A stretch of DNA of 64,000 bases, taken from contig CACNCB010000001.1 in NCBI GenBank assembly GCA_902618695.1, forward strand, positions 248,001 through 312,000, read 5' to 3'. The position numbers and the translations under genes are program-made. Every line of letters begins with the position of its first letter. Position 1 is the stretch's first letter. Origin of the DNA: an uncultured Pelagibacteraceae bacterium (GTDB lineage: Bacteria > Pseudomonadota > Alphaproteobacteria > Pelagibacterales > Pelagibacteraceae). Below are positions 46,626 to 55,598 of this stretch, piece after piece. The notes below the pieces were generated by a model. That model ran no database searches. It was not told the DNA's origin and saw only the letters and a list, made by a program, of their open reading frames with translations.

Positions 46626-46753
46626 TTAAAATTCATTAAAAACCAAGATTTTAGATCTAAAAGCAAATGCTAGGCTTTTGAATGATGTTCTTGTTTTGTG
46701 GACTCATTCAGCGTTGAATTTGTGGGGGAGTGTATTGGATTTCCTTGTTCTTT

Positions 46754-46796
46754 TCTTGGTTCAGGCCAGGGAAAAGTCTTGGTTCGCTCTTGGTTC
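46754..46796 (+). repeat. Three direct copies of TCTTGGTTC, candidate integrase arm-type sites (left end)
   Basis: 46754-46762, 46777-46785, 46788-46796. Confidence 0.65.
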
Positions 46797-46893
46797 AGCT
46801 GATAATTTGCCTTTTCATTCTAGCAGCTAGTTTGCTTTTCTACTCCCGATCCTTGATTTGATATTCCCTATCGAAAAAGGAGAAAAATAAAAA

Positions 46894-48437
46894 TGACTAT
46901 TAATGATAATAATAACAATAATGGCGTCGCAGCGGTTGCTGCTCCGCCGAGCACAAAGAAGAAATACAAGAAGCGTGAACCGATCTTTGAAAGTAAATTT
47001 CACTTTTCAGATTCTAATATGGTTCGTGTTCAGTTTAATAATCTTAAAAAGAATCTTGATAGAAGATTTGATAAGGGCCTGAAAGGTTTATGCTGCAGAG
47101 TTCTAAAAGACGGCAGCATAATATTTTACGCTTGGAAAACTGTTCCCATGTACAACAAACAAAAAGGACTCTATGAGCAAAATGTTGTTTATAAGAAGAT
47201 GTTTCCGTGGAGCAAGAACACGGGATTTAATTGTAACGCTGCACAAGATAAGCTTTCAAGTTACCTGGACAAGATAACTGATGCTCGTTCCGTTGATGAG
47301 AATGAAGTTACTATTGGAGATCTAACTAGAAAATTTGTCAAAATTGGTATGGACGGATTTAAGATTTCTGATGAAACTAGATTCTATAAACCCGCAGTTA
47401 AGGAACAAAATAAAAAGGCTTTATCAAGTTATGTTCTGTTGGAGGGTTGTACTGAAATGGTTAAAAAGAAAATGTTAGAACCTATTGAATATCAAAATAG
47501 AATCTACAATAAGCCATTGAAAGAATACAAAGCTTCTGAATTATCTGAACATGATATCAGAGCTTTAAAATGGAAGTTGAGAGATACGCCACAAAGTTAC
47601 AATACAATTCACGCTTTGGTTTCAACTGTATTTACCTGGGCCCGTCAGAATAAATTATTCACGGGAGAAAATCCTTGGCTGCTAGTGAAGCGTTATCCGA
47701 AAGTAAAAGTTAAAATTAAATTACCTGATGATAAAAGAGATCTCATTAAAGAATATTGTGAGTCTAAAGCTTTCGATTATAAACCTCACTTTTTAACATT
47801 AATTGCAATGGTTCTTTACACGGGCTGCAGAGGCAATGAGATGTACGGACTCCGTTGGAAAGAGCCAAGATCTGAAGAAGAAAAAGAAAAATGTTCAGGT
47901 TGGCTTGAAGAGGGTTGGGAGAATATGGAGGAGAAAACTCACATTGTATTATGGGACACTAAAAACAGAAAAGAGTTTAGGCCCTATATTAGAAAGCCGC
48001 TTAAGCTGCTCTTAATCAGATTAAGAAAAAAACTTTATAATGATGAAAAAGTTTCTTGGTGCCTGAAGAGTGATTTCATTTTTCCAAAGACAAGGTGGAA
48101 TGCAAATTACCCTGATGAACATACTGATTCAAACGCTATCGCTTATCCGTTAAGAGAATTAAATGAGAAGTTTGGATTAACTTATGAAACTCCAAGTGGA
48201 CGATTAAAGAATTTCTTTACAATGAAGATTGGGAGAAAAACTTTTGTTTCCCAGGTTGCTAGAGAGCAAGGCGTGGAGATTGCATCAAGAGCTGTTAACC
48301 ATTCTGATACAAAGGTTACTAGAGATCATTATGTTGTACCTGAAGAAAAAGATCTGGAGTTTGAATTGGAAGAGAATAGATCCAATGTTTCAAATCTAGA
48401 AGAAGCGAGAATTGAAAAGCTTAAGAAAATAAAATAA
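46894..48437 (+). CDS. Tyrosine recombinase/integrase
   Basis: YTGCRGNEMYGLRW (catalytic Arg), MKIGRKTFVSQVAREQG (K-x-x-R in place of H-x-x-R), NHSDTKVTRDHYV (His and catalytic Tyr). Confidence 0.88.
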
Positions 48438-48462
48438 GTTAGTTCCCATAACTATTAATGAT

Positions 48463-48927
48463 ATGGGAAAACAAACTTGGAAACATTTTGTTGCGCTTTG
48501 GAGTAGGTTTGGAATAAAACCTGAAGAGGCTACTGAAATTCTTGTTAAGAATTGGTTAGATAAAAATTACACAACTCTTAATGGGAATCTTTGGAAAGAC
48601 AAAAGGAACAGAGTCTATTTCATAAAACTTGTGCATTACATTTATGCTTATATGAAAAAGAAAAATATAAGGTGGAGAGCTGCTTGTTTAAAATTAGCAA
48701 ACAACGGAGATCCAGGTTTAGCAGATGCACTTACTTTGATGAAAGTAATCCCCGCAACTGAAACAGTTTCCATGAGCGCTGTTACATGCGCCAAGTTACT
48801 CGGACAATGGCGCCAGGAGTTCTTTGATAATGGTTGGTTAAACTATGATGAAAGACCTGAAATAAAAATTAAGAGAGTTGAAAAATCTTTAAGAAGAGCG
48901 AAGCTTGTAAAAAAGAAAAAGAAATAA
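48463..48927 (+). CDS. Hypothetical basic protein
   Basis: 154 aa, strongly basic C-terminus; start codon within an inverted repeat. Confidence 0.65.
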   Translation: MGKQTWKHFVALWSRFGIKPEEATEILVKNWLDKNYTTLNGNLWKDKRNRVYFIKLVHYIYAYMKKKNIRWRAACLKLANNGDPGLADALTLMKVIPATETVSMSAVTCAKLLGQWRQEFFDNGWLNYDERPEIKIKRVEKSLRRAKLVKKKKK

Positions 48928-48983
48928 TTACGAGCTGCTAGTTACCTTTCCACGATAAATAAAAAATAAAATATTAGTTCTGC

Positions 48984-49229
48984 ATGAATATAAAAATTGC
49001 AGAAGATCTTAAATCTAAATGCGCAAGTGATGCTGCACTTGCAACACTATCAGATAAAGTTTTGTTAGTTAGCAGCAAACAACTTTCAAAAATTTTAGGA
49101 AAGAAAAACGACAGCAGCTTAAGATCTGCAAGAAGCCATAAGACAGGGTTCAAATACTACACTGATAAGCAAGGCAATATTTATTACAACTTAATCGAAG
49201 TCTTTAAGGAGCTAGGGGTACAATTATGA
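48984..49229 (+). CDS. Small DNA-binding (excisionase/AlpA-like) protein
   Basis: 81 aa: VSSKQLSKILGKK..SLRSARSHKTGFKYYTDKQGNIYYNLIEVFKEL resembles a MerR/Xis-type HTH; stop overlaps next start (ATGA). Confidence 0.5.
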   Translation: MNIKIAEDLKSKCASDAALATLSDKVLLVSSKQLSKILGKKNDSSLRSARSHKTGFKYYTDKQGNIYYNLIEVFKELGVQL

Positions 49230-49636
49230 AAACACAAAATATCGAGAAGAAATTAACAGCGGGAGGAAAAGATACTCCCAAACTGAATATGGAAAAATTT
49301 ATTCAGTTAGCAGATAAGGATAAAATACGATCCGATATCGAGGGAGAAATAATCAGGTTACTAAATGAAAAATTTAGAGATCAAAGGAAACCTGGAGAGA
49401 GCTTTAGTGATTGGCTTAATAGAACGCCAAAAGATGAGCTGCTTAAATTAGAATTAAAAAACGGCGGGAATGTAGTGGATTTTCTCTCGTACCTGAAACA
49501 AAAACAAAAACCAAAAGTTAAAGAAATTAATTTAGCTCAAGGAGATTTTGAGAAAACAGTTGCGGGTTTAACTGATGCTGACAAAGATATTATCAAAGAT
49601 CTTTTAAGAAAATCTGGAATCAAGGTGGGGGATTAA
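49226..49636 (+). CDS. Hypothetical protein
   Basis: 136 aa, translationally coupled to both neighbours. Confidence 0.65.
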   Translation: MKTQNIEKKLTAGGKDTPKLNMEKFIQLADKDKIRSDIEGEIIRLLNEKFRDQRKPGESFSDWLNRTPKDELLKLELKNGGNVVDFLSYLKQKQKPKVKEINLAQGDFEKTVAGLTDADKDIIKDLLRKSGIKVGD

Positions 49637-54058: not shown

Positions 54059-54644
54059 TAACACAGGAAAGAAATACATAACAAAGTTCACTGCAAAGCA
54101 GCAGAAATTTATTGATATCTATACAAGCAGATATGGAGAATTGTCAGCAACAGATTGTGCTATCAAAGCGGGGTATGATCGAAGCAGCGCTCATACTAGA
54201 GCAAATGAATTGTTAGATTGGAGGAAGAGTCCTGACATAGTAAAAGCTATTGATGAACGGCAGAAATCGAACAGAGAAATTTGGTTGGTTGATAAGGAAA
54301 AGCATTTAGCAAACTTAACTAGAATTCAACAAGAAGCTCGGGCAAAAGGTCAATATGGAGTTGCGGGTAAAATGGAAGAGCTAAAAGGAAAAGTCCAAGG
54401 CTTTTACATTGATCGAAATATGACTCTTACAAAAGAAGTTACGCCTGATGAATTAAATCAAAAAATGAAAGATATGTTCCCCACAAGAGAGGAGTACGAT
54501 TTGATGTATGAATCAATGGCCAAGGAGCTTTACGGGGTTCAGGACGATTTGAAGAAAGCTGAAGTTGAAGAGTTAGAGGATAAGGAAGCAGAAACAGAGC
54601 TTGAAAAGTTTTTGGAGGACAGAGAGAGGCAGCGAAAACCTTGA
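54039..54644 (+). CDS. terS: Terminase small subunit
   Basis: FTAKQQKFIDIYTSRYGELSATDCAIKAGYDRSSAHTRANELL..PDIVKAIDER matches the Terminase_2-type N-terminal HTH pattern. Confidence 0.85.
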   Translation: MKKKTPDNTGKKYITKFTAKQQKFIDIYTSRYGELSATDCAIKAGYDRSSAHTRANELLDWRKSPDIVKAIDERQKSNREIWLVDKEKHLANLTRIQQEARAKGQYGVAGKMEELKGKVQGFYIDRNMTLTKEVTPDELNQKMKDMFPTREEYDLMYESMAKELYGVQDDLKKAEVEELEDKEAETELEKFLEDRERQRKP

Positions 54645-54817
54645 TCCGTGTTTCTTGGGCCTTGGTGCCTGGATCTGTAATATTTCTAACTAAATTTAAC
54701 TAAAATTCGATTATGGATATTGATAATACAAAATTTAAAAAATATATTAGGCCTATCATTAATAGTAATTCCTTTGGGCCTCATTGCCTTGGGGCCCTTG
54801 GGTCTTGTTCCAAGAAT

Positions 54818-55024
54818 CTAGATTGCTTTTACTTGTTTAGCGTTGGCGTGATAGCAGCTCTTGCAAATGCTGCCCGTTGTGTATTCAAACTCACTGAACA
54901 TAATTGTAAAATCTGTTCTAGCAATTTCAGTTCGATCTCCACCACAAAAGATACAACGATCATGGCTAACATTTTCAAAAACTGATTTATGATTTTCTTT
55001 TCCCGTTCCTCTGTACCAAGCCAT
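54818..55024 (-). CDS. Small CxxC zinc-ribbon-like protein
   Basis: 68 aa: CIFCGGDR...ICKSCYHANAKQ (two CxxC pairs). Confidence 0.6.
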   Translation of the reverse strand: MAWYRGTGKENHKSVFENVSHDRCIFCGGDRTEIARTDFTIMFSEFEYTTGSICKSCYHANAKQVKAI

Positions 55025-55202
55025 ATCCTAGAAATTATAGGAGATAGTTATTTGGAATGCAAAAATTTTTTTGGGCTTATGAACCTATGGATCATAGATA
55101 ATACACCTAGAGTAGAAGTAACCTTTTCTGTGGATCTTGGGGTTGGTCTAGTATCTTTTTTCAAAAATGAGTTTCAACTAGGATCCCTCTTGCTTAACAT
55201 GC

Positions 55203-55248
55203 AGCGGGAGTCCGAGTCAGCTGCTTCAGCAGCTCGAGGACGACCGCT
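55203..55248. other. Long GC-rich imperfect hairpin
   Basis: AGCGG-GA-GTCC-gagtc-AGCTGC-TTCA-GCAGCT-cga-GGAC-GA-CCGCT. Confidence 0.7.
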
Positions 55249-55471
55249 TTAGAGTCAGTGATGAAGTTGTCGAATAAATTTTTTATGCTTAAATCTGATG
55301 CCTCTATGGACTCGCAATCGCTATGTTTGAGTCAGTTTAAAACCTCAGAAGTTAAAAAAATTAGACTCGGTTTTATTGAGTTTTTGGAATCTTCTAGACC
55401 AAGAAATAAAGTTTTGATATTGTTTAGAAATGATTGGGAATGCTATCAAATTTTTAAATTATATTTTAAAT

Positions 55472-55491
55472 TCTTGGTACATTCTTGGTTC
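55472..55491 (+). repeat. Right-end copies of the TCTTGGTTC arm-type motif
   Basis: TCTTGGTAC (55472-55480) and TCTTGGTTC (55483-55491). Confidence 0.6.
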
Positions 55492-55598
55492 GGAAAGTAT
55501 GAGAATGAAATTGGTTCTAGAAGCCTTGATTATTAATGATAATAGAGATCTGTTAAAAAGGCAGATACATTCGTAGTTTTTTTTCATATTATAAAAAT

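Follow-up and report, generated by a model that had tools for sequence, protein, structure and literature searches.

What kind of genetic element would carry an integrase, a DNA polymerase of its own and a terminase small subunit (TerS), and none of the genes that build a virion? The question is raised by an intact element of 8.95 kb that lies between lpd and priA in a genome of SAR11, a group that ranks among the most abundant bacteria of the ocean. It forms part of a 64,000-nucleotide stretch from an uncultured Pelagibacteraceae bacterium (assembly GCA_902618695.1, contig CACNCB010000001.1, positions 248,001 to 312,000), hereafter called the window, in which all positions below are counted. 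A preliminary description of the window had proposed a satellite parasitising a pelagiphage, and had named three things that would speak against it: structural or terminase large subunit (TerL) homologues among the open reading frames (ORFs), vertical conservation of the locus in SAR11, and a larger prophage split by assembly. None of these was found, and we consider the element most probably an integrated, mobile SAR11 phage satellite that redirects packaging through its own TerS. We favor this reading because TerS is present while TerL, portal and capsid genes are not recognised in the element, nor TerL or portal elsewhere in the genome; because attachment sites at both ends, their end-to-end junction, empty sites, a related element at the same site in another genome (G036) and a circular relative (L082) all point to a mobile unit; and because gene order is conserved, selection has acted on the genes, modules are exchanged between elements and TerS matches the SF6 G1P structure.

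The element encodes a terminase small subunit and no recognisable virion genes

The genes of the element are compact, intact and overlapping, and mostly lie on the plus strand, with one convergent minus-strand gene at the right. Family searches put a name to just three of the ORFs:

46893-48437, plus strand: tyrosine integrase (int), 514 amino acids (aa); PHROG 1 at 4.6e-20, PF00589 below its cut-off
51794-53644, plus strand: family-A DNA polymerase (Pol), 616 aa, with 3'-5' exonuclease motifs; PF00476 at 3e-21
54039-54644, plus strand: TerS, 201 aa; PF03592 at 4.4e-10, SF6 G1P structure at 4.8e-8

The polymerase also matches PHROG 17 at 3.5e-33 and Klenow-type structures, and is without a 5'-3' exonuclease domain; its exonuclease residues D18, E20, Y151 and D155 and its polymerase-motif residues D355, R406, K410, H520 and D521 are invariant across 15 relatives. 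TerS likewise matches PHROG 51 at 9.2e-12. SF6 G1P is a pac-type recogniser, and the Terminase_2 family includes recognisers of the pac/headful kind.

As the preliminary description had stated, virion genes are missing from this set: in Pfam and PHROG family searches none of the element's ORFs scored meaningfully against TerL, portal, capsid or tail families, the tail or spanin matches that came closest being those of a coiled-coil ORF (protein F, below; E about 0.1-0.4). Apart from integrase and polymerase the largest ORF encodes 245 aa, and all these others are thus too small for portal or TerL. Nothing in the host assembly (about 89% complete, for a genome of 1.23 Mb) matched the PHROG models for TerL (phrog_2) or portal (phrog_12), searches that were positive in 11 and 4 of 14 control genomes, respectively. 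Ten further ORFs from related elements, of the D, E and F type or cargo, matched no PHROG virion family. Genes for interference or capsid size gave no convincing family match in the element either, proteins D, E and F being of no known family.

The element integrates at the 3' end of lpd and exists in a joined form

The element lies on a continuous 377-kb contig that runs through lpd on one side and priA on the other. The preliminary description had placed the locus correctly; its ends are here corrected to the following sites, and the minus-strand gene M is added.

46603-46622, plus strand: attL, the att core in the last lpd codons (..KRAIHS stop), placed by the attP junction of contig L033 and by empty sites in relatives
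55553-55576, plus strand: attR, a displaced lpd-like end (KRQIHS stop)

Insertion occurred in the final codons of lpd, an essential gene, and the element supplies a replacement end that restores the reading frame: attL, GATAAAAGAGCAATACACTCTTAA, encodes DKRAIHS and a stop, and its portion past the crossover is derived from the element. The sequence of attR is TTAAAAAGGCAGATACATTCGTAG. A tRNA attachment site was ruled out for this copy, as the window contains no tRNA and insertion took place at the lpd 3' end.

The preliminary description had suggested marine virion-fraction metagenomes as a place to look for reads joining the two ends. A metagenome contig, L033 (9,073 bp, 99.4% identical to the element), contains such a junction. 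It covers 46852-55578 and continues directly with 46604-46975, crossing the end-to-end junction attP, GGCAGATACACTCTTAATTAA; its own termini overlap each other by 123 bp at 99% identity. Because L033 reads across attP, excised or tandem DNA exists, and the joined form is either an excised circle or a tandem or concatemer. Junctions equivalent to attP are also found in L035, L037 and L039.

The site between lpd and priA is empty, with a gap of only 17-43 bp, in 36 of the 55 congeneric genomes in which the start of priA was read (source genome included). The other 19 comprise the source genome, the related element of G036, other islands and unrelated sugar genes. Members of the polymerase family were present in 3 of 399 congeners. 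Taken with the joined form, the empty sites and this sparse distribution establish that the element is mobile and not vertically inherited throughout the genus. Like known satellites, it is chromosomally integrated and excisable, with an integrase and att sites, as attL and attR, the L033 junction and the empty sites attest.

Related elements share a gene order and exchange modules

The remaining ORFs of the element are as follows, with model confidence given as the predicted local distance difference test (pLDDT):

48463-48927, plus strand: protein B, 154 aa, helical, conserved beside int in relatives; model pLDDT 72
48984-49229, plus strand: protein C, 81 aa, small helix-turn-helix (HTH)-like, conserved in relatives
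49226-49636, plus strand: protein D, 136 aa, no known family, conserved in relatives
49636-50373, plus strand: protein E, 245 aa, variable, charged and proline-rich, no known family
50357-50638, plus strand: protein F, 93 aa, predicted coiled coil, no known family
50638-50835, plus strand: protein G, 65 aa, open reading frame
50832-51080, plus strand: protein H, 82 aa, conserved in relatives
51080-51784, plus strand: protein I, 234 aa, tentative OB-fold; model pLDDT 81, weak gp32/SSB fold matches
53654-54058, plus strand: protein K, 134 aa, winged-HTH-like, conserved after Pol; weak GntR and DnaD-like loader matches
54818-55024, minus strand: protein M, 68 aa, C4 zinc-ribbon-like, highly conserved in an alignment of 8 elements

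The integrase, polymerase, TerS, small HTH protein and unassigned ORFs of the preliminary description are therefore all present and intact, its winged-HTH-like protein being weakly matched. A fold search with the model of protein B gave no match. Protein C is possibly an excisionase or regulator; an HTH_17 protein occupies its position in G552, a single-contig genome of the same family. No homologue of protein G was found in the other elements compared. The fold matches of protein I are non-significant (best E 0.037 in PDB and 0.0067 in BFVD), with the OB folds of T4/RB69 gp32 and SSB recurring among them, and on its modelled fold it may tentatively be taken for a single-stranded DNA-binding partner of the polymerase. 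Protein M has 14 invariant columns in the 8 aligned elements, including four cysteines.

By tblastn, the gene order int-B-C-D-E-F-(G)-H-I-Pol-K-TerS-M is common to relatives, and was seen whole or in part in L034-L039, G036 (AG-920-L03), G096 (AG-447-B22), AG-917-F14, AG-899-N21 (L083, L085) and L082. The element of G036 occupies the same lpd site, and its polymerase is 49% identical to that of the window. L082, an IMG/VR contig of 9,177 bp with 99-bp terminal repeats, represents a circle of 9,078 bp with the same gene set. In G096 and AG-899-N21 the integrases have diverged and the elements adjoin tRNA genes; the tRNA neighbours of relatives are tRNA-Asp/Val in L042, tRNA-Met in L085 and tRNA-Arg in L130. 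More distantly, G552 carries int, the HTH_17 gene, E-like and I-like genes, Pol, a K-like gene and M beside tRNA-Arg, and I-Pol-K modules occur in other alphaproteobacterial islands (L043, L044, L127, L130). In L036 (1481-2401), a relative has its B and C genes separated by an inserted gene of endonuclease VII/HNH-like type.

Comparison with L035 gave ratios of nonsynonymous to synonymous substitution (dN/dS) of 0.08-0.26 where dS was unsaturated, and the genes are under purifying selection. L035 is itself a mosaic: its I, Pol and K are 88-89% identical to those of the window, and its integrase shares 60% identity with the integrase of the window and 87% with the one in G036. Modules have evidently been exchanged between elements, the polymerase of L035 being window-like and its integrase G036-like.

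Alternative explanations

Could the element instead spread without phages? It might be a mobilizable island or integrating plasmid that replicates with PolA after excision and is carried by transformation, vesicles or chance transduction, its TerS being an accessory or having some other role. We consider this unlikely, though it survives better than the other alternatives. The I-PolA-K modules that occur without TerS in G552 and in other alphaproteobacterial islands fit it, and it does not call for the helper and packaging that the satellite reading infers. However, TerS is conserved in position and in sequence (52-81% identity to the window protein among related satellite elements), has the lowest dN/dS measured (0.08), and is found in all fully read SAR11 elements except G552, and no relaxase or mobilisation family was matched in family searches of the element's ORFs.

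A decayed prophage remnant that has kept integrase, polymerase and TerS, all of which occur in phages, is very improbable. Its genes would hardly be intact, overlapping and under purifying selection, and it is already refuted by the gene order and the size of about 9 kb that many independent copies have in common. An excised or joined form also speaks against it, and the integrase and proteins B, E, I, K and M have no homologue among 50,697 phage records. A decayed or split prophage was accordingly rejected, given the 377-kb contig that passes through both flanks, the intact genes and the missing TerL and portal. Just as improbable is a small, atypical but complete virus with capsid proteins (E or D, say) that have diverged beyond recognition, since for all that D, E and F belong to no known family, no ORF besides integrase and polymerase exceeds 245 aa, the variable, charged and proline-rich E is only 15-36% identical among relatives, and TerS occurs without TerL.

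Helper, packaging and replication of the proposed satellite

Several observations weigh against the satellite reading itself. Packaging and the helper are parts of it that we infer from gene families, and no helper phage was identified. The element has no recognised pac or cos site, and family searches recognised no primase or helicase, which are usual in satellites. In G552 no TerS was matched, which means that the wider family does not strictly require it. Among isolated phages the closest TerS proteins, those of Pelagibacter phages HTVC027P and HTVC023P, are 29-31% identical over two thirds of the protein; that of L087 is 34% identical; and among viral contigs relatives of the polymerase are scarce, a single one having been found. 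The pelagiphage helper of the preliminary description is thus plausible, with isolated-phage TerS at about 30% identity as against 52-81% among satellites, and no more than plausible. HTVC027P and HTVC023P each encode a TerL and a polymerase of their own. Searches of viral contigs turned up no close phage TerS, and a TerS-like stretch in L031 was set aside as probably a fusion or an artefact at the contig edge.

If the element is a satellite, its cycle might run as follows. Upon infection by a tailed pelagiphage, the integrase and the small HTH protein would excise the element, and its family-A polymerase would amplify it, aided by the OB-fold-like protein I and the winged-HTH protein K. TerS would then bind satellite DNA and deliver it to the TerL and procapsid of the helper, and concatemers would be packaged and injected into a further SAR11 cell, where re-integration at lpd would follow. 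Because no primase or helicase was recognised, priming and unwinding would have to be borrowed or to follow some unrecognised mechanism, or synthesis would be primed at hairpins (below) or from a transcript; for the same reason the earlier claim that the polymerase permits replication without a host or helper replicase is unsupported as stated.

Comparison with known satellites

Phage-inducible chromosomal islands (PICIs) and the staphylococcal pathogenicity islands (SaPIs) of the TerS type combine an integrase, a small HTH regulator, replication genes and their own TerS with a chromosomal att site, and lack virion genes. The element shares these traits and is of similar size; in particular it has its own TerS (PF03592) without a TerL match. 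It differs in its SAR11 host, in that no capsid-size or interference gene was recognised, and in that the primase/initiator module of PICIs was not matched, a family-A polymerase and an OB-fold-like partner standing in its place. Small integrase-bearing elements of marine virioplankton thought to be packaged as concatemers are known as virion encapsidated integrative mobile elements (VEIMEs). They are named in PMC10803314 and PMC11389934. The element too is marine, small and integrase-bearing, and may likewise be packaged. It would appear to work like a satellite of the PICI/VEIME type, and fits the loose description of VEIMEs.

The PICMI of Vibrionaceae is a minimalist satellite with no capsid-remodelling genes and a joined head-to-tail form; no terS homologue was found in it, and a primase-like gene is used (PMC10803314). 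The element resembles it in minimal gene content, in having no recognised capsid-remodelling genes and in its joined form, but encodes TerS as well as a polymerase, and lacks a recognised primase; for this reason it is not a PICMI. Families typical of P4-like satellites (the primase-helicase alpha, psu/sid/delta) were not matched in the element. The tycheposons of Prochlorococcus are likewise marine tyrosine-recombinase elements, some of them satellite-like, and differ in host. The alphaproteobacterial islands L044, L127 and L130 have the same I-PolA-wHTH module in the same order; no TerS was recognised beside the polymerase, and their protein I belongs to no Pfam family. Among the open-licence papers searched we found none on a phage satellite with a family-A DNA polymerase.

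Putative operator, arm and hairpin signals

We describe as new a 12-bp motif in four copies, integrase arm repeats, and paired, inverted, covarying hairpins around attP; together with a conserved non-coding block they lie as follows:

46896-46907, plus strand: 12-bp motif, copy 1, int codons 2-5
48451-48462, plus strand: 12-bp motif, copy 2, directly before B
51089-51100, plus strand: 12-bp motif, copy 3, start of I
54755-54766, minus strand: 12-bp motif, copy 4, inverted, after TerS
46754-46796, plus strand: P' arm, three arm-type repeats TCTTGGTTC (46754, 46777, 46788), with spacing that matches G036, L082 and the G006 island
55472-55491, plus strand: P arm, arm-type repeats TCTTGGTAC/TCTTGGTTC at 55472 and 55483
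46923-46948, minus strand: left hairpin with a GA/GA internal loop, inside the 5' end of int; loop AACC here, AACA in relatives
55203-55248, plus strand: right-hand hairpin containing two GA/GA internal loops; RNAfold z -3.1, copies in relatives covary
55208-55391, no strand assigned: conserved non-coding block with 7 GANTC sites, between M and attR

The 12-bp motif, ACTATTAATGAT, is present in four copies and no more in the 1.23-Mb genome, every one of them inside the element; by chance about 0.005 copies would be expected per element. The G036 element also has exactly four copies, at four equivalent positions; none was found in the more distant elements L082, L042 and L085. With three sites where int, B and I begin and a fourth behind TerS, the motif likely marks the operator set of an element-encoded regulator. 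The arm repeats stand on both sides of attP; their spacings are 23 and 11 bp in one arm and 11 bp in the opposite one. The repeat varies between elements, each having a largely uniform one of its own (TCTTGGTAC for G036, TCTTGGCAT for L037), a pattern that integrase arm sites would be expected to show. Neither the operator nor the arm-repeat pattern was found in viral contigs.

The two hairpins stand in inverted orientation on either side of attP, about 310-350 bp from it, and are built of an outer stem, a GA/GA internal loop, an inner stem and usually an AACA loop. A pattern derived from the right-hand copies of lpd-type elements went on to detect the left-hand ones, which lie in int, as well as right-hand ones of the distant elements L085 and G552. 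Neither 359 kb of control loci nor the remaining 54 kb of the window gave it a match, and 300 shuffled versions of the element gave 8. The two-tier right hairpin of the window was found only by a looser pattern. Stem pairs vary on both sides with pairing kept; the pairs were counted in register by script, and as the search required pairing, the proof lies more in the controls than in the counts. RNAfold z-scores of the right-hand hairpins range from -3.1 to -6.3. The working form could be either RNA or single-stranded DNA. The block between M and attR is the element's densest GANTC cluster (7 sites per 200 bp, P 0.0005 by shuffling), with some sites falling within the right hairpin; the clustering is weaker in L035 and L037 (P 0.06-0.08). 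A search of Rfam assigned neither the hairpins nor the remaining non-coding sequence of the element to a family, and a promoter scan remained at chance level.

One way to read these signals, which we put forward as a rather doubtful proposal, is a primase-free satellite replicon in which the polymerase and the OB-fold-like protein start synthesis at the two hairpins flanking attP, which would place the signals for replication, integration and perhaps packaging in one hub of about 700 bp. By analogy, the hairpins would then act like the single-strand initiation sites of IncQ plasmids or the structured preprimer RNA of ColE1.

The 3' end of lpd as an apparent integration hotspot

In G006, a 6.5-kb island (L076, 8738-15270) occupies the same lpd att site with the same arm repeats and att cores, 87% identical over 205 bp to L035. 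It encodes a 1,531-aa helicase/nuclease with PADLOC matches of the MkoA/MkoC/Hhe type; an integrase was neither within the island nor detected in the 68%-complete genome, in a search without a positive control. A satellite integrase may move this island in trans. In L064 (G065), L065 (G007), L061 (G028) and L118 (G042), small islands or contig ends are likewise bounded by att-like scars, immediately upstream of priA, and the 3' end of lpd therefore looks like an integration hotspot of this genus. L118, between lpd and priA, has a cargo gene cluster in common with L085 (11116-17522), where it lies beside the satellite of AG-899-N21. Surface-sugar gene clusters, with no recognisable att cores, fill the site in G019 and G002 (L077 and L078).

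Significance

The att sites, attP junction, empty site, four-copy motif and hairpins make detection of such elements testable in virion-fraction data and in host genomes. If the satellite reading is true, reliance on an own PolA without a recognised primase would be a solution to replication that differs from that of the primase-bearing satellites known to date. The defence island that carries the same att arms and no integrase hints that anti-phage genes of the host, too, may be transported by an integrase of this sort. Satellites of this kind could alter both the infectious fraction of pelagiphage particles and the movement of genes between SAR11 cells.

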